Source: Lysinibacillus sphaericus (GTDB lineage: Bacteria; Bacillota; Bacilli; Bacillales_A; Planococcaceae). From it: DNA of 64,000 nt. Below are positions 10,516-27,351 of the stretch, piece by piece. A program made the translations under genes and the position numbers. The stretch's first letter is position 1. Every line of letters begins with the position of its first letter. The notes beneath the pieces were generated by a model. The model was given only the letters and a program-made list of their open reading frames with translations, had not been told where the DNA came from and did not search any database. The stretch is from positions 1,558,001 through 1,622,000 of the forward strand of contig NZ_CP019980.1 in the NCBI RefSeq assembly GCF_002982115.1, read 5' to 3'.

Positions 10516-10544
10516 TCATTATAGTTTAATTAGGAGTGGAAGAG

Positions 10545-12371
10545 ATGAACCGAGAAGCACGATTAAAAAGACAAGAGAACATACGAAATTTCTCTATTAT
10601 TGCACATATTGACCACGGGAAATCAACGCTTGCTGACCGTATTTTAGAGCAAACGAAATCACTGACATCCCGTGAAATGAAAGCACAGCTACTCGACTCA
10701 ATGGATTTAGAGCGTGAGCGAGGCATAACAATTAAGTTAAATGCAGTCCAATTAAAATATGAAGCCAAAGATGGCGAAGTGTATACGTTCCATTTAATCG
10801 ACACACCAGGACACGTCGATTTCACATATGAGGTATCACGTAGTTTAGCTGCTTGTGAGGGCGCTATTTTAGTTGTGGATGCAGCACAAGGCATCGAAGC
10901 ACAAACATTGGCTAACGTTTACTTAGCACTTGATAACGATTTAGAAATTTTGCCAGTTATCAATAAAATCGACTTACCAGCAGCAGATCCAGAACGTGTG
11001 CGTCAAGAAGTTGAAGACGTTATCGGTTTAGATGCTTCAGAAGCGGTATTAGCTTCCGCAAAGGCTGGTATCGGTATTGAAGATATTTTAGAACAAATTG
11101 TTGAAAAGGTTCCTGCACCAACAGGCGATCCAGATGCACCATTACAAGCACTTATTTTTGACTCTGTATATGATGCCTATAAAGGTGTTATTATTTCCAT
11201 TCGAATTATGAATGGTACGGTTAAACCTGGCGATAAAATTCGTATGATGGCGACAGGTGCAGAATTTGATGTTATTGAAGTTGGCGTACATACTCCGAAA
11301 AGTGTGCCACAAAGTGAATTAACGGTTGGAGATGTTGGTTACTTAACAGCATCTATTAAAAATGTTGGTGATACGCGAGTGGGGGATACTGTTACATTTG
11401 CTAATCGTCCAGCAGCAGAGGCATTAGCAGGTTATCGCCGTTTAAATCCAATGGTATACTGTGGATTATATCCAATCGATACAGCTAAGTATAACGATTT
11501 ACGTGATGCATTAGAAAAATTAGAGTTAAATGACTCTGCATTACAATATGAACCTGAAACATCACAAGCGCTTGGTTTTGGTTTCCGTTGCGGTTTCTTA
11601 GGGCTTCTTCATATGGAAATTATACAAGAACGTATTGAACGTGAATTTAGCATTGATTTAATTACAACAGCACCATCGGTAATTTACGATGTTTATATGA
11701 CAGATGGTACGTCCATTAAAGTCGACAACCCATCCTTTATGCCAGACCCACAAAAAATTGACCGTGTTGAAGAACCATATGTGAAAGCGACAATTATGGT
11801 ACCGAATGATTATGTTGGTGCGGTAATGGAGCTTTGCCAATTGAAACGTGGTAATTTCATGACGATGGATTACATTGATACGTCACGTGTCAGCATTATT
11901 TATGAAATGCCATTATCTGAAATTGTCTACGACTTCTTCGATTATTTAAAATCAAATACCAAAGGCTATGCATCATTTGATTATGAGCTAATCGGTTATC
12001 AGCCGTCAAAACTAGTGAAGATGGATATCCTATTAAATGCCGAGCAAGTCGATGCACTAAGCTTTATCGTGCACCGTGACTTTGCTTACGAGCGTGGAAA
12101 AGTAATCGTAGAAAAACTTAAAGAATTAATTCCTCGTCAACAATTTGAAGTACCAATTCAAGCTGCAATTGGTCAAAAAATTGTCGCACGTTCGACAATT
12201 AAAGCGATGCGTAAAAACGTATTAGCAAAATGTTACGGTGGGGATATTTCTCGTAAACGTAAACTTCTTGATAAACAAAAAGAAGGTAAAAAGCGTATGA
12301 AACAAGTCGGTTCAGTCGAAGTGCCACAAGAAGCATTTATGGCTGTGCTGAAGATGGATGATACGAAGTAA
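10545..12371 (+). CDS. lepA: Elongation factor 4 (LepA)
   Basis: LepA is a ribosome-binding translational GTPase related to EF-G. The 608-residue product has all G motifs: AHIDHGKST (P-loop, about residue 19), [14 protein letters not shown] and SAKAG. The LepA-specific C-terminal domain follows, with [14 protein letters not shown]. The start is ATG 10545 with TAGGAG eight bases upstream; the in-frame GTG at 10536 lies inside the ribosome site. Its last 43 bases are repeated at 14357-14399 beyond a prophage remnant (see mobile element). The protein itself is intact, so integration preserved the reading frame. Confidence 0.98.
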
Positions 12372-12372
12372 T
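12330..12372 (+). repeat. Left attachment-like repeat (lepA 3' end)
   Basis: Starts GAAGCATTTATGGCTGTGC and ends GATACGAAGTAAT, including the lepA stop codon. Its partner at 14357-14399 differs at two positions only. This copy completes a functional lepA. Confidence 0.75.
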
Positions 12373-12463
12373 GTTGATATAACAACGTTTGTAGAGGTTG
12401 TTTATTAGTAATTTTATATCCTTTGGGTGGAGGATGCCACCGATTTGCCACCGTTATTAAAAT

Positions 12464-12498
12464 GAGCCTTCCACAGATGATTGTGGAGGGCTTTTATT
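12464..12498 (+). terminator. Terminator after lepA, inside the element
   Basis: GAGCCTTCCACA and TGTGGAGGGCTTT pair around GATGAT with a following TTTTATTAT. It now terminates lepA, although it appears to belong to the inserted DNA. Confidence 0.75.
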
Positions 12499-12559
12499 AT
12501 ACAAAAAGGAAGGTGTCAGATAAAAATAGACACACTTTATATCAATCGTAGGCGGCTCC

Positions 12560-12934
12560 ATGGCATGGGTCGCTTATTTTGTTGGCGGCGTTGACCACTT
12601 AATAAAAGCGTTAGTTATATTCATGACTATAGATTATGCATTAGGATTCATGGTTAGTTTAGTCTTCAAGAAAACTGAAAGTAAAAAGATGTTTAAGGGT
12701 TTAATCAAAAAGACAGTAATGGTATTAATGGTCATTGCTGCGGTGCAACTTGATTTAGCAACCGAGAGTGGAAACTTCATGCGTAATGCCATGATTCTTT
12801 TCCTTATCGGTATGGAAGGTATCAGTATGATTGAGAATCTTGGCAAGCTAGGAATCAAGGTGCCTAAGTTTTTATCTAACGCATTTACACAACTTCAAAT
12901 TGATAATGATGAAAAGAAGGATGATGCAAAATGA
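12560..12934 (+). CDS. Phage holin
   Basis: A 124-residue hydrophobic protein with about three to four membrane segments and a charged C-terminal tail (NDEKKDDAK). The pattern GGVDHLIKALVIFMTIDYALGFMVSL and GMEGISMIENLGKLGIKVPK matches the class of small phage holins that form membrane holes for the endolysin. In-frame codons upstream of the ATG (reading SIVGGS back to a stop at 12527) look like lost N-terminal sequence, and the ribosome site before 12560 is weak. The gene may therefore be 5' truncated. It overlaps the endolysin fragment. Confidence 0.75.
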   Translation: MAWVAYFVGGVDHLIKALVIFMTIDYALGFMVSLVFKKTESKKMFKGLIKKTVMVLMVIAAVQLDLATESGNFMRNAMILFLIGMEGISMIENLGKLGIKVPKFLSNAFTQLQIDNDEKKDDAK

Positions 12935-13209
12935 CAAGCGTTACAACTACATGCCGAGACTTAGCCGAGCTTTTACCTGCTGCACAAACAGCGTGTCGGT
13001 TGCTATTTCAGGAGTGTTACAAAGCAGGCATTAAGAACATTTTTATCACTGAAACATATCGCTCACAAGCACGGCAACATTACCTGTATGCACAGGGTAG
13101 AACAAGACCAGGGAAAATTGTAACGTGGACGCTGAAGAGTAATCATAAATCACGTCTAGCATGGGATATTGCGGTTGGTCCTCCACAATCATTGTATGAT
13201 ATCACATAA
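12931..13209 (+). pseudogene. Truncated M15-type endolysin (L-Ala-D-Glu peptidase)
   Basis: The 92-residue product resembles the N-terminal half of CwlK/VanY-type M15 peptidases: FITETYRSQARQHYLYAQGRT and NHKSRLAWDIAVGPP, which carry the His and Asp metal ligands. It stops at SLYDIT, before the second half of the domain. The final metal-binding His motif and any wall-binding domain are missing. It overlaps the holin by 4 bp, consistent with a phage lysis cassette. It is probably inactive. An unusually short intact enzyme is possible but unlikely. Confidence 0.7.
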
Positions 13210-13253
13210 TGTTTTGGAAAAATACTATACTTTTGTAGGGTTTTTAACAACCG

Positions 13254-13284
13254 TTGATAGAATATTAAGTTACTGGTATATAAT
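13254..13284 (+). promoter_or_regulatory. Possible promoter of the secreted protein gene
   Basis: TTGATA (13254-13259) and TATAAT (13279-13284) with a 19-bp spacer, about 40 bases upstream of the start at 13326. The spacer is slightly long. Confidence 0.5.
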
Positions 13285-13325
13285 ACTAAGAAATTATGTT
13301 TTTATAACTGAGTAGGAGGAGAATA

Positions 13326-14072
13326 ATGAAAAAATTATTTATTGTGTTACTAACAGCATTTGTATTCGCAGTAGTAAATCCAACGAAATCAGAAGCGAAA
13401 GTGATGCATGATGGAGCGGAAGTTGTAAAAGGGCAAACAGGGAAAATGACCTTTAAAAAAGACATTAAGGTATACAAGAAAAATTCAGATGGTACGTTTG
13501 AATCTTTAGTGGTAAAGCAAAATAACTTCTTTAGAACGTATGATATTGAAAAATATGATAACAAAATATTCTATCAAATGGGGCAATACCGAGTACAAGC
13601 AACCGATTTGGTAGTTTTCAAAGAAGTACCAATAAAAATTCGTTCCTCTTTTTATAACGAACCAACTTATATTATTATTAATCGTGATGGTATTTATAGG
13701 GTCGGATCATACGGATTTAATTTCAGAAGTAGATGGGGTATTTCTTTCTTGGATACAAATAGTGGACAATTGCTGGAGTTTTGCCAAAGCGATGATGGTA
13801 GTTGGATGGCGTGTTATCAGTATCCTGGTACAGACCTTAAAATCGCTGAGACTATACATAGTAAATCCGGAGAGCGTTTTGAGTTAACAAAAGATGCAGG
13901 TGGGAAAAGAACACCATTGGATGAAGCTAAATCAGAAACAATGTATGATAAGGGTAGTGTTTTTCAATCGCAAGGTACTGAAGTTAATGGTTATCTAGAA
14001 GTATTTAGTGAATCCGACTCAAAAAGTTCATGGCTTCCAGCGAATTTATTAAAGCCAGTTGGAGATAAGTGA
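13326..14072 (+). CDS. Secreted protein of unknown function in phage remnant
   Basis: A 248-residue product with a clear signal peptide (MKKLFIVLLTAFVFAVVNP, cleavage near SEAK). The mature part is beta-rich. It begins with a short SH3-like stretch (KGQTGKMTFKKDIKVYKK) and ends with a possible second one (VNGYLEVFSESDSKSSWLPANLL). I do not recognise the family. It has its own promoter, a GAGGAG ribosome site and a terminator, so it is probably expressed. Lying within the prophage remnant after the lysis genes, it could be a lysogenic-conversion gene that outlived the phage. Confidence 0.65.
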   Translation: MKKLFIVLLTAFVFAVVNPTKSEAKVMHDGAEVVKGQTGKMTFKKDIKVYKKNSDGTFESLVVKQNNFFRTYDIEKYDNKIFYQMGQYRVQATDLVVFKEVPIKIRSSFYNEPTYIIINRDGIYRVGSYGFNFRSRWGISFLDTNSGQLLEFCQSDDGSWMACYQYPGTDLKIAETIHSKSGERFELTKDAGGKRTPLDEAKSETMYDKGSVFQSQGTEVNGYLEVFSESDSKSSWLPANLLKPVGDK

Positions 14073-14089
14073 TAGATTAAGAATTATAT

Positions 14090-14128
14090 AAAGCCCTCTT
14101 ATTTTATTTGATAAGGGGGCTATTTTTT
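14090..14128 (+). terminator. Terminator of the secreted protein gene
   Basis: AAGCCCTCTTAT and ATAAGGGGGCT pair around a short loop and precede ATTTTTTAT. Confidence 0.85.
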
Positions 14129-14356
14129 ATGGTTGTGGACATGTGAATAGGCTGATTATCGATGTCTTGTGCTTAGCTGAATAATCCATAAAAGAACACT
14201 CTGTGATGGGTGGTCATTTTGTAATTTCCCCCATCATATCCCCACCAATGATAATAAATAAGCGAAGAAAAACAACCGACAAACCCTTTTACAGCAAAGG
14301 TTTATCGGTTGGAAAAGGATACGAATAGATACATCCTGAATACAACGTTTCTATAG

Positions 14357-14399
14357 GAAGCATTTATGACTGTGCTGAAGATGGACGATACGAAGTAAT
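14357..14399 (+). repeat. Right attachment-like repeat (lepA 3' end copy)
   Basis: A non-coding copy of the last 43 bases of lepA, again including TAA. The two substitutions (GCT to ACT, GAT to GAC) are as expected for sequence no longer under coding constraint. Confidence 0.75.
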
Positions 14400-14437
14400 T
14401 CTGATTTATCAATATAGGTTGTAAACAAGAACCATGT

Positions 14438-14479
14438 AAAAGCTCAGGTACTCAATTAATTTTGAGCCTGAGCTTTTTT
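14438..14479 (+). terminator. Terminator just beyond the right repeat (probable original lepA terminator)
   Basis: AAAGCTCAGG and CCTGAGCTTT, with inner CTCAA/TTGAG pairing, are followed by TTTTTT. It lies 39 bases after the TAA of the right repeat, the spacing expected for the pre-integration lepA gene. Confidence 0.8.
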
Positions 14480-14530
14480 CCATGAAAAACATATTGTTTT
14501 GCCTTTTGTTAATCAGAGACTATCAAAACA

Positions 14531-15157
14531 TTAACTGATTTCGTTTCTATAAATGATCTTATTTACATCGTGTCTTACTGTTTTATGACCGGCTTTCGTA
14601 CCTTTCCCAACAGCTATGAGCATTACATCTAAATACCTGTCAGAAATATGCAAGATGTCTTTTAATTTTTTAGAATCATAGCCTGACATAGTAATCGTGT
14701 CAAAACCCGCTTCGTTTGCTAATAAAATAAATGACATGGACGCAAGACTTACATCTCTAGTTAATTCAAGCTTTAAATCTTCCTTGGATTGGTGTTTGTA
14801 ATAATTGATTGCAGCATCCGCTAGATAATCCCTTAGCGATTCATCATAATACCCCGCTTGGAAGCCTTCCTCATGTATGTCGATAATATTCTCTTTGTCA
14901 AATGCCTGATAATCACCCAACATGACAATTAAAGTTGAAGCTTCTATTACTTGTTGCTGATGAAAGGCTATAGGTAGTATTAAATTTCTTAAGTCCGGAT
15001 TATCAATAATTAAGTATCGTGTAGCTTGGATATTATTTCCATTAGGTGACTTACTTGCACTTTCAACTAATGAACTTATTTGTTCTGAACTTATTTTATA
15101 ACTTGCATCATAATGTCTAACTGAACGTCTTTTTTCCAAAATATTTTTTACACTCAT
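14531..15157 (-). CDS. Nitroreductase family protein
   Basis: A 208-residue FMN-dependent nitroreductase-like protein. It starts MSVKNILEKRRSVRHYD, the usual flavin-phosphate-binding Arg-rich motif. SPNGNNIQATRYLII and the C-terminal GYDSKKLKDIL and IAVGKGTKAG follow. Family members reduce nitro compounds or quinones with NAD(P)H. It is divergent from an HxlR-type regulator across a 129-bp gap containing a strong palindrome. This is the arrangement seen for quinone/electrophile-responsive nitroreductases (MhqR/YodB-type systems). The regulatory link is inferred. Confidence 0.85.
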   Translation of the reverse strand: MSVKNILEKRRSVRHYDASYKISSEQISSLVESASKSPNGNNIQATRYLIIDNPDLRNLILPIAFHQQQVIEASTLIVMLGDYQAFDKENIIDIHEEGFQAGYYDESLRDYLADAAINYYKHQSKEDLKLELTRDVSLASMSFILLANEAGFDTITMSGYDSKKLKDILHISDRYLDVMLIAVGKGTKAGHKTVRHDVNKIIYRNEIS

Positions 15158-15228
15158 GCTATCAGCTCCGAAATTTTTATTGTCTTGCAGCTTTAATTAT
15201 AGTAAGCAATAATATAGAAGAAAATAAC

Positions 15229-15261
15229 GCACTTTAAAGTGGTATAGCCACTTAAAGGTGC
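15229..15261. promoter_or_regulatory. Palindromic operator between nitroreductase and HxlR regulator
   Basis: GCACTTTAAAGTGG (15229-15242) and CCACTTAAAGGTGC (15248-15261) are near-perfect inverted repeats around TATAG. The left arm also contains the perfect 12-bp palindrome CACTTTAAAGTG. It is the only such element in the divergent intergenic region. Confidence 0.65.
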
Positions 15262-15286
15262 CTATTTAGCGTTGGGAGGAAACTAG

Positions 15287-15658
15287 ATGGTGAACTATAA
15301 TACGGGAATTAATATTTTTATGAATATAGCAGGTGGTAAATGGAAATGTTTAATTCTTTTTTTCTTAAGTCAAAAATCAGTAAGAACAAAAGAGTTTTAT
15401 GAGTTAATACCTGGCATTACACAAAAAGTTTTAACAAATCAATTGAAACAGTTAGAAAGAGATGGCCTTGTACGAAGAGAAATATTTAAAGAAGTACCGC
15501 CAAAAGTAGAATATAGCTTAACGGATTTAGGAAAATCTTTTGTACCAGTATTAAACACAATGTGTGAATGGGGAAATACATATGCAGGTATAAAAGGTCT
15601 AGATAAAGATCAACAAATTGATTGTGATTTGTTCCGCGGTGCTCAAAATAACGTGTAA
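15287..15658 (+). CDS. HxlR-family transcriptional regulator
   Basis: A 123-residue winged-helix protein. NIAGGKWKCLILFFL, FYELIPGITQKVLTNQLKQL, ERDGLVRR and PPKVEYSLTDLGKS are the family signature (recognition helix near residues 40-60). HxlR proteins such as HypR, YodB and QsrR often sense quinones, diamide or aldehydes through a reactive Cys. Here the candidate is Cys in KWKC (about residue 21), with later Cys in the C-terminal part. GGGAGG precedes the ATG. It probably controls itself and the divergent nitroreductase through the palindrome between them. Confidence 0.88.
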   Translation: MVNYNTGINIFMNIAGGKWKCLILFFLSQKSVRTKEFYELIPGITQKVLTNQLKQLERDGLVRREIFKEVPPKVEYSLTDLGKSFVPVLNTMCEWGNTYAGIKGLDKDQQIDCDLFRGAQNNV

Positions 15659-15818
15659 TGGCAACTCGTCTTGCTTCTACAGGTACTGTAAATAATGAAT
15701 CAAACATTTATTTAAAAAGTGAGTAGCTGTTTTTTCTAGATTGAGGCAATATTAGGTTTAACTAGATTTCATTTAAAATGCCAAAAAATTGTCGATATAG
15801 ATTATGAGGTGGTAAAAT

Positions 15819-16547
15819 ATGAAAATAACGCATGATAGTAATTCTACGAACTTCATTAAAGTGTCAAATGTATCTTCCAATAGACCTAAAACGATTCAGC
15901 AAAATGCTCTAATTCGTAAAGATACATTAACAATAGGGCAACAAGCACGAAATTTGTTTAAAGGTCAGCAAGCTAAAACGAGTCTGATTGAAAGTTTAAT
16001 GAAGCAACGTGAGAGCGTTCAACAAATGAAAAGTGATTTAAGCGAACGGACGTTAGAAAACGGAGGCGACTTATCGTCTATTAAAGAACAGCTAAAGGAT
16101 TTTGAAAAACAAATAGCTGAAATTGATGCCCAAATAGCTGAACAGCAGATGGAAGAGCAAAAGAAAGCGACAAACCAAAAGGATCAAGAAATAAAGAAAG
16201 AACAACCTGCCAATTCACTGGAGGATATTTTGGGCAAATCTGTTTCACTAGAACAAATGGAAACATTAGAATTGTCGAGAAATTCATTAGGACGCGAACA
16301 AAATCGTCTTGCGAGTGAAGTAGCGTTAGATGCTAGCCGGGGTACTTTTATTGATAAAAAATATGAAAAACTCTCAGATTTAGAGGATCGGATTCAAACT
16401 GTGCAAGAAAAAGTAGCCGATCACCTTCAAAATGCTGAAGATAAAGATTTACATAAAGAAGCATCTTTAACTACTCTTATTGATGAGCTTAAAGAATCTA
16501 AAACCAAACAACAACAGGATAAACTGACAGCGGAAGAAGGCAGTTAA
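15819..16547 (+). CDS. Predicted coiled-coil protein, function unknown
   Basis: A 242-residue hydrophilic protein without signal peptide or membrane segment. Long charged helices dominate: about residues 50-120 (SLMKQRESVQQMKSDL, then KEQLKDFEKQIAEIDAQIAE), with a second block near 150-205. The N-terminal 40 residues are Asn/Ser/Lys-rich and probably disordered. I do not recognise the family. GAGGTGG precedes the ATG and a strong terminator follows, so it is a single-gene unit. Its codon use looks like its neighbours'. Confidence 0.65.
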   Translation: MKITHDSNSTNFIKVSNVSSNRPKTIQQNALIRKDTLTIGQQARNLFKGQQAKTSLIESLMKQRESVQQMKSDLSERTLENGGDLSSIKEQLKDFEKQIAEIDAQIAEQQMEEQKKATNQKDQEIKKEQPANSLEDILGKSVSLEQMETLELSRNSLGREQNRLASEVALDASRGTFIDKKYEKLSDLEDRIQTVQEKVADHLQNAEDKDLHKEASLTTLIDELKESKTKQQQDKLTAEEGS

Positions 16548-16609
16548 AGTAACTAGCCATCACCATATTGAGCAAATTTGACAGATTAACTGTTATTGTG
16601 AAGATTGAA

Positions 16610-16646
16610 AAAAGCCCAGTTCTCAAAATTATGAGACTGGGCTTTT
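16610..16646 (+). terminator. Terminator of the coiled-coil gene
   Basis: AAAAGCCCAGTTCTCA and TGAGACTGGGCTTTT pair with one mismatch; it could also serve the minus-strand gene ending at 16715. Confidence 0.85.
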
Positions 16647-16714
16647 GGGTGCGATCTAATTATTATGGACATGGCAAAAGGATCGTAGCCATATGCATGG
16701 TAGCAAAATAGCTA

Positions 16715-17338
16715 TTAATCACATGTGTATTTATATTCAGGGTTTGTTTGAATAAAATAGCCACTTCGTACTTGCCCTGCCCAGTTTTGTAATGCTTCTT
16801 TCCAAGCTATACTATCAAAAAATTCATCTACAGTTGTCGTTTCAGAAAACCATATTAATGGGGTATAAGGGGCAAGTGGACCTGCATCTCCCCAGATACC
16901 ACCTGCTTTGATTGTACTTTGTTTTACAAGAAGTAAAGGAAGTCCGCGTTGTAGAGACATGGATGGTTCTATTTGTAAGAAAGGCGAATAAGGTTCAAGT
17001 TGATCCGTTCGCCGAGTTGGTTTTAATAGAGCCGCAGCTGTTCCATAACTAGAGTTTACTATTGTCCGGACATTCTCTATTGTAGTATTGGGATATTGGT
17101 CTGTATTCGGAATGGTTCTTGGGAAAAGAAGCACCTGTTTAATTTCGTTAAACATCCGAATAATAAATCGTTGCTCATTAGATAGTGGTGGTTGTGCTGA
17201 TCCTAAAGTAAAAAGGTTTTGATGGCTAAAAAAAACAGGAATGCGGAAAAATGCACCTGCTGCATCATTTAAATCTTCCACAGCTTTATAAAATTGATTG
17301 ATTTCAGTGTTCGTATTTCTAGTTTTATTCTCACTCAA
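16715..17338 (-). CDS. Hypothetical protein, divergent from a DUF6143-like gene
   Basis: A 207-residue soluble protein with no signal peptide and a TTG-type start preceded by AAGGAGGTGATAAAAC. It is rich in aromatic and Pro residues (RIPVFFSHQNLFTLGSAQPP, YSPFLQIEPS, GPLAPYTPLIWFSE). A helical N-terminal third is suggested by NQFYKAVEDLNDAAGAFF. No catalytic motif is obvious and I do not recognise the family. It faces the gene at 17567 across a 228-bp gap. That gap contains a CATACAGT box like the SigE -10, so the pair may be sporulation-linked. That link is tentative. Confidence 0.6.
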   Translation of the reverse strand: MSENKTRNTNTEINQFYKAVEDLNDAAGAFFRIPVFFSHQNLFTLGSAQPPLSNEQRFIIRMFNEIKQVLLFPRTIPNTDQYPNTTIENVRTIVNSSYGTAAALLKPTRRTDQLEPYSPFLQIEPSMSLQRGLPLLLVKQSTIKAGGIWGDAGPLAPYTPLIWFSETTTVDEFFDSIAWKEALQNWAGQVRSGYFIQTNPEYKYTCD

Positions 17339-17566
17339 GTTTTATCACCTCCTTACGCTAACTTATTCAAAAGTTAGAAGAAAAGGCTGTGTTTACATAC
17401 AATATAGCTATTCATTTTATATCTTGTAAATTATCACCTATATATTGCGAGTGAAAAATCATGAAATGTAGTTACTAGAGAAATAAATTAGGTTGCATTA
17501 GTTTAATTTTCGAATACACATTTTTATCCTCTCTACATACAGTGTAAAAAGGAGTGGTGTGTATTT

Positions 17567-18100
17567 ATGAAAAATCATGACCGTTTTATTAAAGCTGTTA
17601 ATATTCCTAATCCATTGTATCAATCCATACAAGGACGATATTTTGTTGGTCAAACGGAACCGATTTGTTTAGGGAAAGGGAAGAATGCCTGGGGAAGCTT
17701 GAGTAATCCGCATTATTCAAATGTAGATTTATATGTAAATGCGTTTACCATTACAAATCATTCGAATCAACCGTTTGTTGCTGAAATTTGGTTTAATGCA
17801 ATACCTCCTGGAAATGCGATGATTTCTAAAAACGTAACATCTGCAAATCAAGCCATTTCGCCACTTCCAAAGCCCGAAGTGAAAATTGAGTTTGCTGAAC
17901 TTGTAAGTGGATTTCCAAAACAAGGCGTAAATGTATTTAAACGAATTGTACCACCACAAAGTACATTGGTAAGTGATGAAGATGGAAAATTTATTTTTCC
18001 ATCAGGAGAGTCATTTGTTATTTTTTTAGTTTCACCCAATGATGAATATATCGAGGCAGAAGTGGCATTTGGCTGGTTTGAAAAAAAGATTAAGAAATAA
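17567..18100 (+). CDS. Hypothetical protein, possibly DUF6143
   Basis: A 177-residue soluble protein, predicted mostly beta strand. Phrases are YVNAFTITNHSNQPFVAEIWFN, ELVSGFPKQGVNVFKRIVPPQSTLVSDEDG and IFPSGESFVIFLVSP. The pattern resembles small Bacillus proteins annotated DUF6143, but this is from memory and uncertain. AGGAGTGG precedes the ATG. Upstream, CATACAGT (17536-17543) resembles a SigE -10 box, although the -35 match is poor. It has no signal peptide or membrane helix, so a coat-associated or cytosolic role is equally open. Confidence 0.6.
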   Translation: MKNHDRFIKAVNIPNPLYQSIQGRYFVGQTEPICLGKGKNAWGSLSNPHYSNVDLYVNAFTITNHSNQPFVAEIWFNAIPPGNAMISKNVTSANQAISPLPKPEVKIEFAELVSGFPKQGVNVFKRIVPPQSTLVSDEDGKFIFPSGESFVIFLVSPNDEYIEAEVAFGWFEKKIKK

Positions 18101-18377
18101 ATATATCTCCGCCAAAGAAGATTCGCTTGTGTACATTCGATTGGGTAATGCCAGCGTTCATCGTTAATTGTTGACTATATTATATGTATTGAATATTTTT
18201 TATGGGGAGATTACTTTATTTTACAATAGCTAAATGCAATGATAGTCACAATTTAAAACCTCTTATACACATTAAGTTACCACTTACTGTATGAATTACA
18301 AATCTTCTAAAATGGCGTGTTACATTAAGAATGTAGCACGATATTTTTGGATAAATCATTTTTTAGGGGACTGTAAA

Positions 18378-19013
18378 ATGAAAAAAATTACGTTAATATT
18401 TAGCTGCTTAGCTATTGGAATAGCTGGATACTCCATAGTTCAATATTTAATAATGGATGCCCATCAGGCAGGCTTTGTTCACATGAAACTGATGTTTATG
18501 GATACATTGGATTCGCTTTGGTATACCTTGCTTTATATCCATATTGTATTTAGTATAGTGGCTTTAGTAATAGGACCCTTTACGCTATCTTCAAAGTTTA
18601 GAGAAAAAAATAGGAAGTGTCATCGTATAGCAGGGAAGGTCTATGTGATAGGCATTTTATTCGGCAGTATTGCAGGTCTTTATTTAGCGTTTTATGCTAC
18701 AGGCGGATTTGTGTCACAGCTCGGTTTTAGTTTGTTAGCTATTTTCTGGATCATTACCGGCTATCAAGCGGTTACGAACATTAAAAAACATAATGTTTAT
18801 GAACACCAAAAATGGATGATACGCAATTATTCATTAACTTTTGCTGCAGTAACTTTAAGAATCTGGCTACCATTATTTACTGCATTATTTGGATTCGAAA
18901 ATTTTATGATTAGTTATCCTATTATTTCGTGGTTATGTTGGGTGCCAAATCTTATAGTTGCGCAGTGGATTATTGGGCGGACACTTCAAGAAAGAAGCAC
19001 AATAGTTATATAG
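18378..19013 (+). CDS. DUF2306-type integral membrane protein
   Basis: From the ATG at 18378 (AGGGGACTGTAAA upstream) the product has 211 residues. It has about seven hydrophobic segments and the recurrent motifs LLYIHIVFSIVALVIGPFTL, HRIAGKVYVIGI and YEHQKWMIRNYSLTFAAVTLRIWLP. The conserved His residues are typical of the DUF2306 membrane family, whose function is unknown. A longer reading from 18291 adds 29 residues without a ribosome site and is rejected. Confidence 0.78.
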   Translation: MKKITLIFSCLAIGIAGYSIVQYLIMDAHQAGFVHMKLMFMDTLDSLWYTLLYIHIVFSIVALVIGPFTLSSKFREKNRKCHRIAGKVYVIGILFGSIAGLYLAFYATGGFVSQLGFSLLAIFWIITGYQAVTNIKKHNVYEHQKWMIRNYSLTFAAVTLRIWLPLFTALFGFENFMISYPIISWLCWVPNLIVAQWIIGRTLQERSTIVI

Positions 19014-19025
19014 GTTAGGATAAAT

Positions 19026-19050
19026 GCCACTCGATTTAGGGTGGTTTTTA
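19026..19050 (+). terminator. Weak terminator of the DUF2306 gene
   Basis: CCAC and GTGG around CGATTTAGG-type loop, followed by TTTTTATT. Confidence 0.45.
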
Positions 19051-19210
19051 TTGTCTATTCGTATCAAAAAGGCTGCCAAATTGGGAGGGTAGAATTTAAA
19101 AAAAGAAAAATAAAAGCCATCGGAAAGATGATATTTTTTTATGTAATCCTAAAATTATTATTAAAAAATGTCTAAATTTTCTTAAAAAATAAAGTAATTT
19201 GACTATTGTG

Positions 19211-19225
19211 TGAGAATCATTATCA
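19211..19225. promoter_or_regulatory. Fur box
   Basis: TGAGAATCATTATCA matches the Bacillus 7-1-7 Fur consensus TGATAATnATTATCA at 14 of 15 positions. TTGACT at 19199-19204 is a plausible -35, so the box would cover the -10 region, the usual repression geometry. The first downstream reading frame is a truncated protease. Confidence 0.7.
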
Positions 19226-19347
19226 ATGATAAATTATTGTTAACTCGGGGATAGTTTAGCTATAGTTATACGCTGTTGATATTATATAATATTACTTTTC
19301 AAATTGACATCACAAATGAAGTTTTAGGTTTTACATTTAATTAATAG

Positions 19348-19896
19348 GGTGAAGTTATACTAACTAGAGGTATCGTAATTGATTCAGTTGCACCAACAAT
19401 TATCAAGAATGCAATTGAATTGGCTGTCCAAAAAGATGTTTCTATTATTAATTTAAGTATGGCTAGCCATTTTGAAGATAAAGATATTACGGAAACGATA
19501 AAATTAGCAGTAAATAAAGGTGTTACAGTAGTAGCTTCCTCAGGAGATTATGGAAATACTGAATTGATGTATCCTGCAATTTTAGATGAAGTTATTTCAG
19601 TTGGGGCGATAGATACTTCAGGAAATGTACTTGATTTAACAAGCGGTTCGCAAAAAACAACGATTAACGCACCTGGTCACGAGATATCAACAATCCATTC
19701 CGATGGGACTATAATTAAAACTACTGGTACATCGCAGGCAACAGCCTTAATATCAGGCTATATTGCACTATTAAAAGATTATGCCTTTTCGAAAAATGTA
19801 GCGTTAACTGATGATACGATTATATCGTTATTAAAGTCTATTAATAATGAAGAATTAACGTATTTACAAGCATTGATGAAAATCAGTACTTGGTAA
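19348..19896 (+). pseudogene. Subtilase (S8) fragment lacking Asp and His
   Basis: The frame from 19348 reads into the C-terminal half of a subtilisin-like peptidase: VQKDVSIINLSMA, GVTVVASSGDYGN, AILDEVISVGAID, INAPG and the catalytic Ser motif GTSQATALISGYIALLK. The Asp and His segments of the triad are absent. No good start exists: the first in-frame candidate is a TTG at 19420 in the middle of a conserved helix. A 5' deletion has probably removed the signal, propeptide and half the catalytic domain. Two small membrane-protein genes follow at once, suggesting an old operon. Confidence 0.75.
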
Positions 19897-19909
19897 GGGG
19901 GCTAGTTAT

Positions 19910-20086
19910 ATGGAAATAAGACCATATTATTTAGCAATAATAGCAGCCGTGATAAGTTGTAGTGCATCATATTTATCAATATCTTCAGATGCCAAATCTA
20001 CCATTAACTTTTTTATGGCTATTTTAATAATTATTTCCATTTATTTGAGTTATAAAGAATACAAAAAGTCGAAAAGAGAGTCGTGA
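19910..20086 (+). CDS. Small two-helix membrane protein
   Basis: A 58-residue protein starting MEIRPYYLAIIAAVISC, with a second hydrophobic helix (NFFMAILIIISIYLSY) and a basic C-terminus (KEYKKSKRES). The start has AAGGGGG eight bases upstream. It follows the protease fragment by 13 bases and precedes another small membrane gene whose product also starts MEIR. The three may have formed one operon. No family recognised; an accessory or self-immunity role is only a guess. Confidence 0.6.
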   Translation: MEIRPYYLAIIAAVISCSASYLSISSDAKSTINFFMAILIIISIYLSYKEYKKSKRES

Positions 20087-20114
20087 TCTTAATAGATTAA
20101 TAGGATGTTGATAT

Positions 20115-20324
20115 ATGGAAATAAGAGATTGGTTTAGTATACCAATGATATTAAGTCAAATTGTTATTTGGATTTTATGGATTCTATTACAACTTGCTTT
20201 AGAAGCCAATGTAATGTGGATAGTTTTTTATCCATTTAATTTTCTTTTTGTTGCAAATGTAATTATTGGCGTCGTCTTCAAATTAAAAAGTGTAAAAAGA
20301 CAACGTGTTAATATACGGGTATAA
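20115..20324 (+). CDS. Small membrane protein
   Basis: A 69-residue protein with two strong hydrophobic helices (about 10-32 and 36-55) and a basic tail (KLKSVKRQRVNIRV). It starts MEIRDW, like its upstream neighbour MEIRPY, so the two may be diverged duplicates. AGGATG precedes the ATG and a terminator follows closely. No family recognised. Confidence 0.6.
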   Translation: MEIRDWFSIPMILSQIVIWILWILLQLALEANVMWIVFYPFNFLFVANVIIGVVFKLKSVKRQRVNIRV

Positions 20325-20325
20325 G

Positions 20326-20366
20326 ATGACCAAGTAAGCAAACGATGTGACCTTGGTCATTTTTTA
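20326..20366 (+). terminator. Terminator of the small membrane-protein operon
   Basis: ATGACCAAG and CTTGGTCAT flank a 17-nt loop and are followed by TTTTTATT. Confidence 0.75.
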
Positions 20367-20481
20367 TTGTGCAACGAATCCTGAAATAATGGAAAAATAT
20401 AACTGACGAAATACCGTATGTGTATTATGATAAAAAAATAAGAAAGTAACACATTTTGGTTGTAGGAGAGAGGGGATTGCC

Positions 20482-21135
20482 ATGGATTATCGTATATTTG
20501 AGCAGAGAGTTCAGAATATAGTGGAGCGAATAGTTGCGATTGGTGGAGAAGTATCAACAGTAGATATTGGTGCCCCTGCGACGCTACAACAAATTGCGCA
20601 CTGTGAGAACCAATTAGGTTTCCAAATTCCTGAAAGTTTTAAAAAAGTGCTTGTGGAGTTTTCATCAGCATTTTACTTCCGTTGGGGTTTTCTAGATGAT
20701 TACCAATTGGAGGGTGAACTGGACGGAATCTTTAGCGGAATGCTTCACTGGGATTTAGAATTATTGAACGAGATAAATAATGATAAAAATGCGTGGATTA
20801 AGGAAGTTTTTTCAAATCCACAACATGACTACGATAAAGTATGGCATCAAACATTTGCTTTTTACGAGGTCGGCAATGGAGACTACATTGCATTTGATGT
20901 CGTTGATAACAATGCTGATGCTTCTATTGTTTATTTAAGTCATGATGATGGGGAAGGACATGGCTATAAATTAGCGGACAACTTTATTGATTTTCTGGAA
21001 AAATGGTCTAGGTTAGCATTTGTTGGTGGTGAAGATTGGCAGTGGCTAGCATTTACATCGAATGCTAGAAGTGGTCTTTTACCAGACAGTCAAAATGCAA
21101 AACGATTTAGAAGTTTAATGAAATTAACAATTTAA
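20482..21135 (+). CDS. SMI1/KNR4 (SUKH) family protein
   Basis: A 217-residue soluble protein of the SUKH superfamily. PATLQQIAHCENQLGFQIPESFKKVLVEFS is the typical N-terminal part, then FAFYEVGNGDYIAFDV, IVYLSHDDGEGHGYKLADNFIDFLEKWSRLAF. In bacteria many such proteins are immunity proteins against contact-dependent or polymorphic toxins, but here no toxin gene is adjacent. GGAGAGAGGGGATTGCC precedes the ATG. It may be an orphan immunity gene or a housekeeping SUKH protein. Confidence 0.85.
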   Translation: MDYRIFEQRVQNIVERIVAIGGEVSTVDIGAPATLQQIAHCENQLGFQIPESFKKVLVEFSSAFYFRWGFLDDYQLEGELDGIFSGMLHWDLELLNEINNDKNAWIKEVFSNPQHDYDKVWHQTFAFYEVGNGDYIAFDVVDNNADASIVYLSHDDGEGHGYKLADNFIDFLEKWSRLAFVGGEDWQWLAFTSNARSGLLPDSQNAKRFRSLMKLTI

Positions 21136-21195
21136 TTTGGGATGCATGACGGGGCTTAAGAAAAGTGTCATATTGTTTAAAAGGAGCTAATAACA

Positions 21196-21685
21196 TTGTA
21201 CGAACAACAACTTGCAAGGGCAATCCAATTACGTAATGAGGAAAAGAAGAAAGAATCAAATCACTTGTTGTTAAAAATGGTAGAACAATACCCGAATGAT
21301 GCGTTTGTGAACTATCAATGTGCTTGGAGCTTTGATGTTTTAGGAGAAGAGTCTCAAGCGGTACCATACTATGAAAAAGCAATTCAGCAAGGGCTATCAG
21401 GCAAAGAGTTAGAGGGTGCGTTTATAGGGCTTGGTAGTACATATAGAACGTTAGGACAGTATAAAAAAGCACAATCGACGTTTTTAAAAGGAATTGACTT
21501 ATTTCCGACTAATAAAGCATTACAAGTCTTTTATGCCATGACTTTATATAATCTAGACGAGCATAGTAAGGCGATGGAGCTTTTACTAGAATGCTTGCTA
21601 CATACGACAAGAGATGCGGAAATACTTAGTTATAAAAAATGCGATTCATTTTTATGCACATCAATTAGATAAAGTATGGCAATAA
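21196..21685 (+). pseudogene. Tetratricopeptide-repeat protein with 3' frameshift
   Basis: TTG start at 21196 after AGGAGC. About three TPR units are visible (ESNHLLLKMVEQYPNDAFVNYQCAW; EESQAVPYYEKAIQQG; GQYKKAQSTFLKGIDLFPTN). The frame as read ends at 21672 with the unlikely tail CDSFLCTSIR. Removing one A from the A6 run at about 21632-21640 restores YKNAIHFYAHQLDKVWQ, ending at 21685, a convincing C-terminal helix. So there is a one-base slip. It may be a true mutation or a sequencing error; the protein may still be mostly functional. Confidence 0.7.
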
Positions 21686-21697
21686 AGGGGGAATAAT

Positions 21698-21901
21698 GTG
21701 ACGAAGTTTTATATGATGGCTATTACCAAAAAAACAGATGACCAAGAATATGAAGAAGCAGAAAAAGTTTTTGTTAAAAAATCGCAACTAAAAAAGTATT
21801 AGAAGAGTGAAGGGTACTGCAAGGAAACCAAGTATCAGTACATTAAAATACAAAAAGAAACGATGTATGTTGCCACTGTTGAAAAAATAAAAGTACAATA
21901 G
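21698..21901 (+). pseudogene. Small gene interrupted by an in-frame TAG
   Basis: GTG at 21698, with AAAGGGGGAATAAT upstream, opens a frame MTKFYMMAITKKTDDQEYEE that stops at TAG 21800-21802. It then continues in the same frame for another 32 codons (SEGYCKETKYQYIKIQ, VATVEKIKVQ) to TAG 21899. The composition is the same on both sides, so the first stop most likely replaced a Gln codon. It sits 13 bases after the restored TPR stop, probably as its operon partner. No family recognised. Confidence 0.55.
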
Positions 21902-21986
21902 CAGTCCAAATTCACGCAAACCAGAATGGCCGATTCTAAAAGGGAAATTAGAATAGATGGCCTATTTGAACAGGGAGTTGTTTTAG

Positions 21987-22325
21987 TTGAAAATTAGTAA
22001 AGAACATGCGGAGCATTACATTTGGGGTAAACAATGTGATGGCTGGCATTTAGTTAAAAATAATGAATTAAGTATTATTCATGAACGGATGCCTGCCAAT
22101 ACAACGGAAGTTTGTCATTACCACCATCAAGCACAACAATTCTTTTTCGTGCTATCAGGTATAGCAACAATGGAAATAGGCGAAGATCGGATTATATTAT
22201 TGCCTCATGAAGGGGTTGAAGTACCACCATTTCAACCACACCAAATGCGCAATGATTCACAGGAGGATGTGGAATTTTTAGTTGTTTCACAGCCAAATAG
22301 TAGAGGAGATCGTACGCCGATATAA
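21987..22325 (+). CDS. Cupin-domain protein
   Basis: A 112-residue single-domain cupin. The first metal motif is recognisable in CHYHHQAQQFFFVLSGIATMEIG (His-x-His, later Glu) and the second in PPFQPHQMRNDS. Small cupins of this type bind a divalent metal; they may be isomerases, dioxygenases or binding proteins, and the substrate cannot be inferred. The start is a TTG at 21987 after CAGGGAG. It stands alone. Confidence 0.8.
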   Translation: MKISKEHAEHYIWGKQCDGWHLVKNNELSIIHERMPANTTEVCHYHHQAQQFFFVLSGIATMEIGEDRIILLPHEGVEVPPFQPHQMRNDSQEDVEFLVVSQPNSRGDRTPI

Positions 22326-22439
22326 GGTTATATAGGAACCTAAAGTATGTTTTCTAAATCTTCATTCTTTTGCATGAGGAACATTCATCTGTTATTTAGT
22401 ACAGTAAATGGTATCAGAAGCTAAGGGGATGAGTGATTT

Positions 22440-23135
22440 ATGAAAATTTTTAAAATAAAACTTTATGCGTATGATTTACATAAAATGAGGGAATTTTACT
22501 GTACCTTATTAGGATTTGAATTATTAGATGAGGGGACCCATTTTTTTGACATAGCTGCTGGGGAGAGCAAAGTTCGATTCGAAAAAATAGAGGCTTCTGT
22601 TGCAAAGCAATATCATTTCGCCTTCAATATCCCTAGTAATTTATTTCAGTTAGCGAAAAAATGGGCAAAAGAGCGTGTAGACGTATTAAGTTTGGACGGA
22701 GTCGATGAAGTGTATTTTAAAACAATCGATGCCTATTCATGCTATTTTTATGATGCTGAGAACAATGTAGTAGAGTTGATAGCACGGCAGCAAATCAATC
22801 CGAGCGTTAATGCCGATACATTTTCTATTCAACATATACTGAATATAGCAGAAATAAATTTAACCACAGATGCGATTGCAGACGTCGTAGACCGTTTAAA
22901 GGAATATGATATAACGCCATTAAAGGGAGAAGATATTCGCCCAGATGCGCTAACCTTTATGGGAAATTACGAAGAGGGTGCCCATCTATTAATTGGTCCA
23001 AGTGAACGTCTTTGGTATTTCTCTACGCGTAAAGCGATTATCAGCCCTATTCAAATAGAGGTAAATAAAGAGATTGTGATATCTATGACAGCTAAAGGCA
23101 ATTTTGCTATTTCAGAACAAACGAAGGATAGATAA
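22440..23135 (+). CDS. VOC (glyoxalase/bleomycin-resistance) superfamily protein
   Basis: A 231-residue protein with an N-terminal VOC domain: KLYAYDLHKMREFYCTLLGFELL, then CYFYDAENNVVELIARQ with the usual metal-ligand Glu. A second, more diverged half (about residues 125-215) may be the paired module. VOC enzymes include glyoxalases, dioxygenases and drug-binding proteins; specificity is open. GGGGATGAG lies upstream. It converges on the cysteine synthase gene. Confidence 0.78.
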   Translation: MKIFKIKLYAYDLHKMREFYCTLLGFELLDEGTHFFDIAAGESKVRFEKIEASVAKQYHFAFNIPSNLFQLAKKWAKERVDVLSLDGVDEVYFKTIDAYSCYFYDAENNVVELIARQQINPSVNADTFSIQHILNIAEINLTTDAIADVVDRLKEYDITPLKGEDIRPDALTFMGNYEEGAHLLIGPSERLWYFSTRKAIISPIQIEVNKEIVISMTAKGNFAISEQTKDR

Positions 23136-23156
23136 CAAGGCTATCCTTCGTTTTAT
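23119..23156. terminator. Bidirectional terminator
   Basis: AACGAAGGATAG and CTATCCTTCGTT pair perfectly around ATAACAAGG, with T-rich flanks on both strands. It separates the converging VOC and cysteine synthase genes. Confidence 0.85.
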
Positions 23157-23158
23157 CG

Positions 23159-24154
23159 TTAAAATAAATCGGTAGATAAATAGCGCAATCCTGTATCTGG
23201 AAAGAGTACGACTATACGTTTTCCTTTGTTTTCGGGACGTTTAGCAAGAGTTGTTGCAACAAACAATGCCGCACCAGAGGATGTACCTACTAAAACACCA
23301 TCTGTTTGTGCTACAGTGCGAGCAGCTTTATAGGCCTCATCTGTTTCTACTTCTAATACTTCATCAATCCGATCAAGATGAACATTAGACGGAACGCGCG
23401 CTTCCTGTGCATCTGAAAAGCGATGCACACCTGTAATTTCAATAATATCAGGCTGTTCAACTGTAGCGATAGAATTAATAGCAGGTTCTACGCCTATAAT
23501 TTGTATGGCTGGATTTTTGGATTTTAAATAAGCACCTACACCACTAATGGTGCCTCCTGTACCTATTGCAGCAACAAAAATATCAATTTGTCCTGCTGTG
23601 TCCTCCCAAATTTCTGGCCCAGTAGTGCGTTCGTGAATGTTAGGATTGGCTTCATTATCCAGTTGATTTAGAAAGACGACATTTTCATCCTTATCAACGA
23701 CAGTTTCTCTAAATACTTTAATGGTTTCAACAAAATCGCCATCAGTTTCTTCAAATGCCGCTACCATCTCTGGTACATCGGAAAATGGAACAACCTCGGT
23801 TCCATATGCTTTCACAACCTTTGTTCGTTCTTCGCTTACACCATCTTGCATGTAGATACGTAACTTATAGCCCTTTGCTGCTGCGATAGCTGCAAGCCCA
23901 ATACCAGTATTCCCACTTGTTGTTTCAATAATCGTTTTGTCCTTTGTTAAAACTCCACGTGCTTCAGCATCCTCAATCATCGCTTTAGCAATACGATCTT
24001 TTACACTATTCGCAGGATTAAAATATTCTAGCTTCGCAATAATTTCCGCTTCAAGTTGTAGTTCTTTCGTGTACTGATTTAACGCTAATAGTGGTGTATG
24101 CCCTATTAACTCGATTATCGACTGCTTTATGGTATTGGCAATAATTTGACCCAT
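23159..24154 (-). CDS. PLP-dependent cysteine synthase family protein
   Basis: A 331-residue fold-type II PLP enzyme. NPANSVKDRIAKAMI has the PLP Lys, ETTSGNTGIGLA the substrate loop, GTGGTISGVG the phosphate cup and GVLVGTSSGAAL the late Ser. This is the O-acetylserine sulfhydrylase (CysK/CysM) fold, making cysteine from O-acetylserine and sulfide. AAAGGGGATGATGAT precedes the ATG. No second cysteine gene is adjacent and no S-box or T-box is visible upstream. Whether it is the main CysK or a paralogue cannot be decided here. Confidence 0.9.
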   Translation of the reverse strand: MGQIIANTIKQSIIELIGHTPLLALNQYTKELQLEAEIIAKLEYFNPANSVKDRIAKAMIEDAEARGVLTKDKTIIETTSGNTGIGLAAIAAAKGYKLRIYMQDGVSEERTKVVKAYGTEVVPFSDVPEMVAAFEETDGDFVETIKVFRETVVDKDENVVFLNQLDNEANPNIHERTTGPEIWEDTAGQIDIFVAAIGTGGTISGVGAYLKSKNPAIQIIGVEPAINSIATVEQPDIIEITGVHRFSDAQEARVPSNVHLDRIDEVLEVETDEAYKAARTVAQTDGVLVGTSSGAALFVATTLAKRPENKGKRIVVLFPDTGLRYLSTDLF

Positions 24155-24460
24155 ATCATCATCCCCTTTATTTTACTTACTTAACAAATTAGTTTTGTAG
24201 GAATTATTGGCATCTTAGCATGATAAATCCTTATGAGCAATACATTTTCTGATAGAAAGAATGGTTCGATTAATAGAAAAAAGTAATCAGTTTAGTTAAA
24301 TTTAAAGTTTTAGTTGTTTTAAAGAGAAGTGGAGGGTAAGATCAATTATTTGCGTTGTTGAACATTTTAGAAAAAACATGAATTGCGCTATGATAAGAGA
24401 AATGGGAATGCTGTTATGATAGTAACTAGAAAAATGAATGGTGGAGAGGATTTGAATGGA

Positions 24461-25477
24461 ATGTTGGAAGATGTTAACCGATTAAAAGAAAGAATCAATC
24501 AACTAAGTGAAGCGGAAGCAAAGTCAATGCTTTTCATATCTCTATTAAATGGAAAGTCGAGAGAGGACATGCAGCAAATACTCCTACATATGACAGAAGA
24601 TAAGGAACAAATGGATAAAGCGCAGACAATACATATTGTTTTTGGTGATTCGCCAGCCGGAAGTCTAAAAGCAGCATTTAGAACGTCAGAATATCAAAAG
24701 ACAGAGGATATTATTGTTTGGCCAGATAATTTATCGATTGGGCCAGTAAAAGATATACATCAAGCTTCGGGAATAGAAGCGAGACTTGGATGGTTCAACA
24801 AGCGATACAATATGGACGAGGCTGAACGTAATCATTATCGACAATGTATGCAAACTGCAATAGAGAAAATAAACAATATTTTACCACATCAAAAAATCGT
24901 TATTTGGACATGCCAAAATGCACATGAACAAACAGGATTACGACTTGTACTAGCCATGCTAGAAGGCAAAGTGAATGCAGTGCGAGTCATTGATACGTAT
25001 AAGGCTTTTCATGAAAAGGAGATGCATCCACAAATAGCGGATTATCCACGAACTTCAGGAGAATTGAATGAAGAAAACCTCCTGTATTTTTATGAACAGT
25101 TTGCTATGGATGAACTAAAAAATGATGCAAGAGAAGCTTTAATGAAGGAAGGTAAAAGCTTATTAGTAGATAAAGTCCATCTGTTACGAACATGGACATG
25201 TGATGGGCTATTACATAGCCTACATGAAAATCGAGATGATGATTTTATTATTGAATGTGCCAAGCGGATGTATCAAGAAGAGGGTACCGTAACGTTTAAG
25301 AAAGCGGCACGTTTAATAGGTGAAGTATACGGACATATGCAACAATTTACAGGAGACGAGTGGATTGAGTATCGTTTACGAACGTTAATCAAGCAGGGGG
25401 TTTTTTCGTATCAAGGAGATTTGAAGGCAATGCGATTTTATGAAGTGAAATTGCAAGACGAATTCTTGACAAATTGA
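24461..25477 (+). CDS. DUF1835/DUF3658-type protein
   Basis: About 338 residues from the ATG at 24461, with GGAGAGG eleven bases upstream; earlier starts at 24383, 24416 and 24434 have poorer sites. The centre reads IHIVFGDSPAGSLKAAF and DIIVWPDNLSIGPVKDI, the signature of DUF1835. The C-terminal half (LLRTWTCDGLLHSLHENRDDDFIIECA, then TGDEWIEYRLRTLIKQGVF) matches the DUF3658 pattern. Function is unknown; these are soluble Bacillales proteins. The N-terminal 60 residues form an extra helical extension. Confidence 0.78.
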   Translation: MLEDVNRLKERINQLSEAEAKSMLFISLLNGKSREDMQQILLHMTEDKEQMDKAQTIHIVFGDSPAGSLKAAFRTSEYQKTEDIIVWPDNLSIGPVKDIHQASGIEARLGWFNKRYNMDEAERNHYRQCMQTAIEKINNILPHQKIVIWTCQNAHEQTGLRLVLAMLEGKVNAVRVIDTYKAFHEKEMHPQIADYPRTSGELNEENLLYFYEQFAMDELKNDAREALMKEGKSLLVDKVHLLRTWTCDGLLHSLHENRDDDFIIECAKRMYQEEGTVTFKKAARLIGEVYGHMQQFTGDEWIEYRLRTLIKQGVFSYQGDLKAMRFYEVKLQDEFLTN

Positions 25478-25624
25478 AATTTTTGATGTTTTGACTTCAT
25501 TAAAAAGCATAGATAGAATAGTGTAGTAGAGTTTGAATAACTCTAGTCGATTAGCAACATTTATCAGTGAACATAACGAGTGAATAAATAACGAATAGAT
25601 AAATTTGAAGAAAGGAAGTCGATT

Positions 25625-25987: not shown

Positions 25988-26052
25988 TTTGTTTTGGTCG
26001 TCACAATGTGCAATAATCATTGACAATTAGCAATGATAGAGGAGTGAGTTGG

Positions 26053-26478: not shown

Positions 26479-26634
26479 TAATAAATTGAAGGATCGCTGA
26501 CGAAGTAGTGTTGGCATCCTTTATTTATTGTCTGTGCAAGATTGCACCATTTAATCACTGTCAGAAAATAGAGGTTTTGCTTAATACAATGTTTAGAAGA
26601 GGAACCGTAAAATGATTTCTATTAAAATTAAGGT

Positions 26635-26685
26635 TTGCCAAATAAATGAAAACATTCTATACTAATAATTAACCATTGGTCAGTT
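26635..26685 (+). promoter_or_regulatory. Promoter and operator of the TetR gene
   Basis: TTGCCA (26635-26640) and TATACT (26658-26663) are spaced by 17 bp. Immediately downstream lies TAATTAACCATTGGTCA (26666-26682), whose reverse complement recurs upstream of the next gene at 27322-27338. This suggests autorepression by the TetR protein. Confidence 0.65.
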
Positions 26686-26698
26686 AAAGGAGGATTCC

Positions 26699-27268: not shown

Positions 27269-27276
27269 ATAATGTT

Positions 27277-27312: not shown

Positions 27313-27321
27313 AACATCTAT

Positions 27322-27338: not shown

Positions 27339-27351
27339 AAAGGAGGAATAG

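Follow-up and report, generated by a model that had tools for sequence, protein, structure and literature searches.

The window analysed in this study, a stretch of 64,000 nucleotides from Lysinibacillus sphaericus (contig NZ_CP019980.1, positions 1,558,001 to 1,622,000), contains at the 3' end of lepA, the gene encoding elongation factor 4, a sequence of 43 bp that recurs in a second copy further downstream. It appears quite probable that this pair constitutes the outer attachment sites of prophage DNA put into the end of lepA by phage tyrosine integrases, and that at least two prophages have become fused between them. Since the integrase is absent, the locus is a prophage remnant rather than a prophage. 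The evidence comprises four sets of observations: the repeat itself, pairs of empty and filled sites in related genomes, the linkage of integrases to lepA and the presence of copies of the lepA tail in phage records.

The repeat at the end of lepA and the block between its copies

The first copy of the repeat is composed of the final 42 nt of lepA and one additional base. It is identical to the second at 41 of 43 positions at a spacing of 2027 nt, with a weaker likeness of the two copies extending to 56 nt at 89%, and the target frame is complete, encoding 611 amino acids (aa) and ending in a stop codon at 12369-12371. A first-pass annotation, based on the letters of the stretch and its open reading frames, had pointed to this repeat about 2 kb downstream of lepA, and its presence is confirmed at a level far above the best random match: the second-best 43-mer within 12373-30929 agrees at only 26 of 43 positions, and the best found in 200 length-matched first-order Markov sequences at 28 of 43. 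When the 42-nt tail was searched with up to nine mismatches in 27 intervals between lepA and hemW, no match was obtained on the reverse strand, nor in one shuffle of each interval. The features of the region are the following.

10536..12371, plus strand: lepA (elongation factor 4), intact frame of 611 aa, whose last ~45 nt form the attachment core
12330..12372, plus strand: first core copy, putative left attachment site, from repeat comparison
12436..12452, plus strand: arm-type direct repeat GCCACC-N5-GCCACC on the P' side, putative integrase binding
12468, no strand: likely deletion junction, from comparison with genome G011
12560..12934, plus strand: holin (PF05105, E 4.8e-34)
12931..13209, plus strand: endolysin, truncated to 92 aa (PHROG 6523, E 4.8e-37)
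13205..13206, no strand: second likely deletion junction, where 4.6 kb of genome G017 are missing
13326..14072, plus strand: gene of 248 aa with relatives in lepA-hemW intervals
14229..14246, plus strand: arm-type repeat CCCCATC-N4-CCCCACC on the P side, putative integrase binding
14357..14399, plus strand: second core copy with two changes, putative right attachment site, from repeat comparison
14438..14477, no strand: hairpin terminator of a dispersed family, at the 3' end of a convergent nitroreductase gene (14531-15157, minus strand)

The holin in this block is 97% identical to that of a remnant in Lysinibacillus mangiferihumi M-GX18 (G017), and the endolysin match spans positions 2-93 of a profile of 255, with the copy in G017 measuring 224 aa. 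The profile matches thus bear out the holin and truncated endolysin described in the first-pass annotation, which had left the third gene at 13326-14072 unmentioned. The latter has no match in Pfam or PHROG, its relatives are found at 55-98% identity in the lepA-hemW intervals of five other genomes, and in one of them, G023, it is located between the remnant of a type-B integrase and the second core copy. On the left side of the block, the sequence around the arm-type repeat at 12436..12452 is, among the reference elements, nearest to that of G011, which carries an integrase of type A. To the left of position 12468 the window matches G011 until 7 nt before the stop of the G011 integrase, and to the right it matches the start of the G011 holin frame, which in that genome is about 35 kb away. 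On the right side, the repeat at 14229..14246 has identical letters in G007 and in two IMG/VR contigs, all three being elements of type B, and the stretch corresponding to 14263-14402, which holds the old right core copy, is missing from G017.

Occupied and empty sites in Lysinibacillus and lepA tails in phages

The cleanest comparison of an empty with a filled site is provided by the closely related genomes G012 and G031, the latter with an insert of 6.9 kb, whose flanks are 99.5% and 99.3% identical with an overlap of 45 nt. In G012, lepA runs directly into a hairpin terminator, and in G031 the 6.9 kb precede the same sequence. Another such pair consists of G021 and the IMG/VR contig 3300011698_000010 (flanks of 99.1% and 95.0%, identical cores). 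This contig carries lepA, with a product 99.8% identical to LepA of the window, a 396-aa integrase frame and, at the opposite end, an identical second core, after which comes the sequence that adjoins lepA in G021. The window itself can be aligned with G017 at flanks of 97.2% and 93.7% identity and an overlap of 36 nt, with 36.8 kb between them, which in G017 correspond to a prophage. In that genome, the prophage is bordered by lepA on one side and by a core copy on the other, and a holin and endolysin stretch like that of the window comes after this copy. The presence of this prophage at the same place suggests that the first core copy of the window is probably still usable as bacterial attachment site (attB). 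In G017, in G011 and in the IMG/VR contig alike, a complete prophage sits between lepA and an older remnant.

The intact-looking prophages of G017 and G011 also answer a proposal of the first-pass annotation, which had recommended a search for such elements next to lepA in Lysinibacillus. Their integrases contain PF00589 and an N-terminal SAM-like domain and are oriented towards lepA, in a convergent manner, and their blocks include terminase, portal, head, tape-measure and endolysin or amidase genes. Across a sample of 32 Lysinibacillus genomes, an additional copy of the lepA tail was detected in 15, in 11 of them on the contig of lepA (G000, G004, G007, G011, G015, G017, G020, G021, G022, G023 and G031) and in four on another contig (G006, G016, G027 and G024, with the copy in G024 being partial and at the start of a contig). 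An integrase or fragments thereof were found on the opposite strand within 2.5 kb after lepA in 24/32 genomes (in G015 only past the second copy), and either an integrase match or an arm-type repeat in 28/32. In G024 and G028 the sequence available after lepA amounted to 135 and 753 nt. The counts are lower bounds in view of the traces in G013 and G026 described below. As a control, 248 tiles of 2.5 kb from other places were scanned, of which two gave an integrase match (one being located directly after the second copy in G011), and a further control gave 8 of 20,000 random windows of 170 nt.

Copies of the lepA tail are also carried by phages. A degenerate tail pattern identified 42 stretches in IMG/VR, nine of them joined to lepA (>500 aligned residues) and 33 as tails alone. 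In 32 of the 42, an integrase on the opposite strand was matched no more than 1.9 kb downstream, and no upstream match was seen. The 42 stretches are not independent, because several resemble strains of one phage. The arm pattern is satisfied in only 13 of them, so either other arm types exist or the pattern is too narrow. Among individual records, a tail copy beside the integrase was found in the Paenibacillus phage Tadhana (the single record examined among 20 of Paenibacillus), in the Latilactobacillus curvatus phages TMW 1.1447 P1 and TMW 1.1365 P3, which come from induced lysates, and in the circular Enterococcus faecium record NZ_CP072895.1 (L218). The last of these, a circle of 37 kb that is listed as a plasmid and contains an integrase, a lepA-tail copy and arm repeats, may be an excised prophage circle. 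GCCACC-like or GCCAAC-like repeat pairs flank the core on both sides in L124, L215 and L218. Tails resembling a phage attachment site (attP) were thus seen for relatives in other hosts, and none was seen for the exact element of the window. An assignment of IMG/VR tails ending in EEESKK to the Bacillus cereus group was dropped, with the same tail occurring in the E. faecium record. The flanks fetched from the Clostridioides difficile phages phiC2 and phiCDKH02 contain no lepA tail (0/2).

The linkage of integrase and lepA extends beyond the genus. A search with the G011 integrase in 261 genomes of the order (E<=1e-60) matched 18 loci in 17 genomes, 14 of which adjoin lepA, three a copy of its tail (L153, L141 and L144, the last being the weakest at 86% over 35 nt), and one, L140, is cut by the end of a contig 92 nt past the integrase match. 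With the integrase of G017, 12 loci were obtained and LepA was found in five of them. In Sporosarcina limicola, where L120 shares a contig with L113 and shows two tail copies, the order is lepA, integrase, further genes, a tail copy with an integrase fragment, further genes, a third tail copy and hemW, whose product is 58% identical to that of the window. Taken together, the empty and filled pairs, the integrase linkage and the phage-borne tails strongly support what had been proposed initially, a site-specific integration of prophages into the 3' end of lepA without disruption of the gene.

A different outcome was obtained for the hairpin at 14438, which the first-pass annotation had presumed to be the native lepA terminator beyond the second copy. 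The hairpin exists, and the reading is unsupported: it is of a dispersed type, with five copies in its own genome at up to three mismatches (the reversed control pattern giving none) and occurrence in 6/9 congeners searched (ten genomes in all), and it adjoins the convergent nitroreductase gene. Because it is dispersed, the hairpin was rejected as a marker of the lepA terminator, and the empty site of G012 has a different one. An element-free lepA followed directly by the 14438 terminator, an arrangement expected from the initial description, was encountered in 0/27 intervals. The nearest case is G018, where lepA is separated from a similar hairpin by ~160 nt that include an arm repeat and the end of an endolysin (13 residues, 85%). 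A role of the hairpin as part of the attachment system is not supported.

Proposed course of integration and competing explanations

From these observations we infer the following sequence of recombination by these integrases. The attP of the phage would contain, between arm repeats, a duplicate of the terminal ~45 nt of lepA including the stop codon. Because attP carries this tail, recombination with lepA would rebuild the full reading frame in the left attachment site (attL) and leave a spare lepA tail in the right one (attR). Since attL retains a complete core, new phages could enter beside lepA again, shifting older ones rightwards. In the window, deletions would have fused at least two prophages of different integrase type. 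What remains would be lysis genes at a left end of type A and a cargo gene at a right end of type B, with no integrase.

The composition from two prophages is suggested by the flanks of the block. The 120 nt after lepA score highest against type-A G011 (113 bits), followed by G020 (80), the mixed G031 (58) and the best type-B reference (46), with the close kin G021 set aside in this ranking of the P' side. Conversely, the 260 nt before the second copy score 215 bits against G023, 185 against the IMG/VR contig 11698, 145 against G015, 109 against G007, 104 against G004 and 98 against the IMG/VR contig 11483, which are all of type B, compared with 99 and 36 bits for G020 and G011 of type A and 34 for G031. 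The arm repeats of the window split in the same way, with a GCCACC type on the left and a CCCCACC type on the right, and a reverse mixture is found in G031. G011 displays the layers in unfused form, with a type-A prophage beside lepA, a core copy and then an integrase remnant that is 88.6% identical to the type-B integrase and 70.6% to that of type A. It is thus likely, judged from short stretches of sequence, that tandem prophages were fused by deletion at the junctions 12468 and 13205/13206. The footprint of a single prophage, as originally described, is upheld with respect to its prophage origin, and in view of the flank scores and the layers in G011 it probably has to be reinterpreted as two tandem prophages that differ in integrase type and became fused.

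The history involving a single prophage, where both copies are attL and attR of one element whose middle was lost later and whose arm types have drifted, would be the simplest. It would accommodate the repeat pair, the lysis genes and the flank order, and G020 indeed resembles the remnant of a single element with type A on both sides. We nevertheless regard it as unlikely, since the left and right arm repeats of the window match different reference elements, whereas the complete or nearly complete elements of G011, two IMG/VR contigs and G017 have one type on both sides (the letters of the two sides differing in G017), and since the cargo gene next to the right copy accompanies a type-B integrase remnant in G023. 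Integrative conjugative or mobilizable elements also use the 3' ends of protein-coding genes, and the inserted DNA could in principle have been of this kind instead of a phage. This is rendered highly improbable by the holin and endolysin in the window, by the terminase, portal, head and tape-measure genes in its intact-looking relatives and by the lepA tail in phages from induced lysates. Even less credible is an origin of the second copy from the lepA end by local duplication or gene conversion, in which no integrase took part and the phage genes are bystanders. Although such an event would agree with a window in which no integrase remains, the clean-flanked pair of G012 and G031 refutes it for the site in general, similar layouts with an attached integrase occur in other genomes, and copies of the lepA tail are found in phage genomes.

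Several findings weigh against an integrase-mediated origin from at least two prophages and have to be considered. The window contains neither an integrase nor a fragment of one, its genome shows no G011-like integrase at E<=1e-60, and no relative with an empty site was found for the scar of the window itself. In the genus, the search detected no integrase and no arm repeat after lepA in four of the 32 genomes (G010, G012, G013 and G026), and among 398 genomes of the class, 11 were matched by the Tadhana integrase, of which two adjoin lepA (84% and 51% identity) and nine are located away from it. The composite reading rests on short flanks, with G020, an element of type A, scoring no lower on the P side (99 bits) than the type-B contig 11483 (98 bits), and the near kin G021, which shares the layout, is devoid of the arm region. 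The off-site tail copy in G027 could reflect a secondary site, a rearrangement or an effect of the assembly. This copy, on contig C16 (L046:7067-7123), comes after phage lysis and cargo genes and has an EF-G-like GTPase gene 1.6 kb further; lepA and hemW are together on another contig, C10, with one tail copy. With respect to the four genomes, G013 was ruled out as phage-free at lepA, its first gene after lepA being 88% identical to a gene that adjoins the integrase of G006, and G026 contains a degenerate arm-like stretch.

The lepA-linked integrase family and the lepA-hemW interval

In six of seven genomes of other genera, hemW is located within ~0.7 kb after lepA, and for the seventh, G038, the 2 kb retrieved after lepA showed no hemW. 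In Lysinibacillus, the distance between both genes amounts to 8.1-74.3 kb in all 27 genomes where they reside on one contig (G006, G016, G022, G024 and G028, with the genes on two contigs, being excluded). In the window (12372-30929), hemW is 18.6 kb from lepA with variable genes between. The gap contains a YqeY-like gene in 27/27 and a chromate transporter gene in 21/27 genomes, and phage accretion thus contributes to the gap but does not account for all of it.

A tree of 39 integrases includes 23 with a visible lepA or tail and 16 without (L130, L131, L132 and L140, which have no visible target, and L123 were left out). The lepA label requires two changes on this tree compared to a mean of 12.5 upon shuffling, and a single change in 25% of bootstrap trees. 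By this tree, a single origin of the lepA-linked integrases is possible. Two related integrases, L115 from the search with the G017 integrase and L156 from the nine Tadhana matches away from lepA, end beside a gene for an RNA uracil-5-methyltransferase, and two others (L116 and L118) are separated from a nearby DNA ligase gene by a small frame. It is possible that targets have changed within the family between lepA and other gene ends. On balance we lean towards a scenario in which one integrase clade has kept the 3' end of lepA across Bacilli while sister branches switched to the ends of other genes, for instance that of the RNA uracil-5-methyltransferase, and in which repeated entry in Lysinibacillus has helped to part lepA and hemW by 8-74 kb, leaving layered debris with a complete prophage beside lepA in three layered cases. 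This scenario rests on chromosomes of Lysinibacillus and Sporosarcina and on phage or circular records of Paenibacillus, Enterococcus and Latilactobacillus.

Tandem accretion of prophages and islands at one attachment site is a general process, in which re-entry occurs at the regenerated site and older layers decay. The locus described here shares repeated entry and decay with this process, its site being lepA. The use of lepA, which the first-pass annotation had considered as not usually listed among attachment sites, is already in print: the relevant parts of a study on Latilactobacillus curvatus describe phages with group VII integrases that integrate into lepA (PMC10688831), and the prophages of this species thus share their integration locus with the window. 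As portrayed there, these are intact prophages in one species (PMC10688831), in contrast to the decayed composite, the genus-wide hotspot with tandem layers and the family extending across several genera found here. The integrases of the two L. curvatus phages examined by us are 50-54% identical to tail-linked IMG/VR integrases, which does not imply an assignment of these phages to group VII. Phage Tadhana of Paenibacillus larvae and its kin (Fernvirus), with a Tadhana integrase that is 54.5% identical to that of G011 and has the lepA-tail copy beside it, are isolated phages, unlike the remnant in the window. Related literature examined for mentions of lepA or of an attachment site leaves the site unnamed. 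phiC2 and phiCDKH02 share the integrase family and the GCCACC arm repeats with the elements described here, but no lepA tail was found in their fetched flanks. Comparable lysis genes occur in SDFMU_Pfc, a Bacillus phage of L. fusiformis, which was set aside, its integrase being ~24% identical and no lepA tail having been found in its record (best nucleotide match of 15 nt). Beyond PMC10688831, no other report among those listed was recognised as naming a lepA attachment site in literature whose coverage mostly leaves out subscription journals. While the mechanism is ordinary and the site known in one other species, the genus-wide, repeatedly filled lepA hotspot, which is well documented and belongs to another bacterial family, and the broad lepA-linked integrase family are new.

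Collectively, a single genus displays the occupied, unoccupied, layered and decayed states of a protein-coding attachment site in conjunction with lepA-tail copies in phage records, and the study has yielded a list of lepA-linked integrases with matching sites. It thereby makes testable how a tyrosine integrase retains or shifts its target over long times, in this case between lepA and other gene ends, and how a conserved gene neighbourhood may be opened by repeated integration while the target gene is left unharmed.

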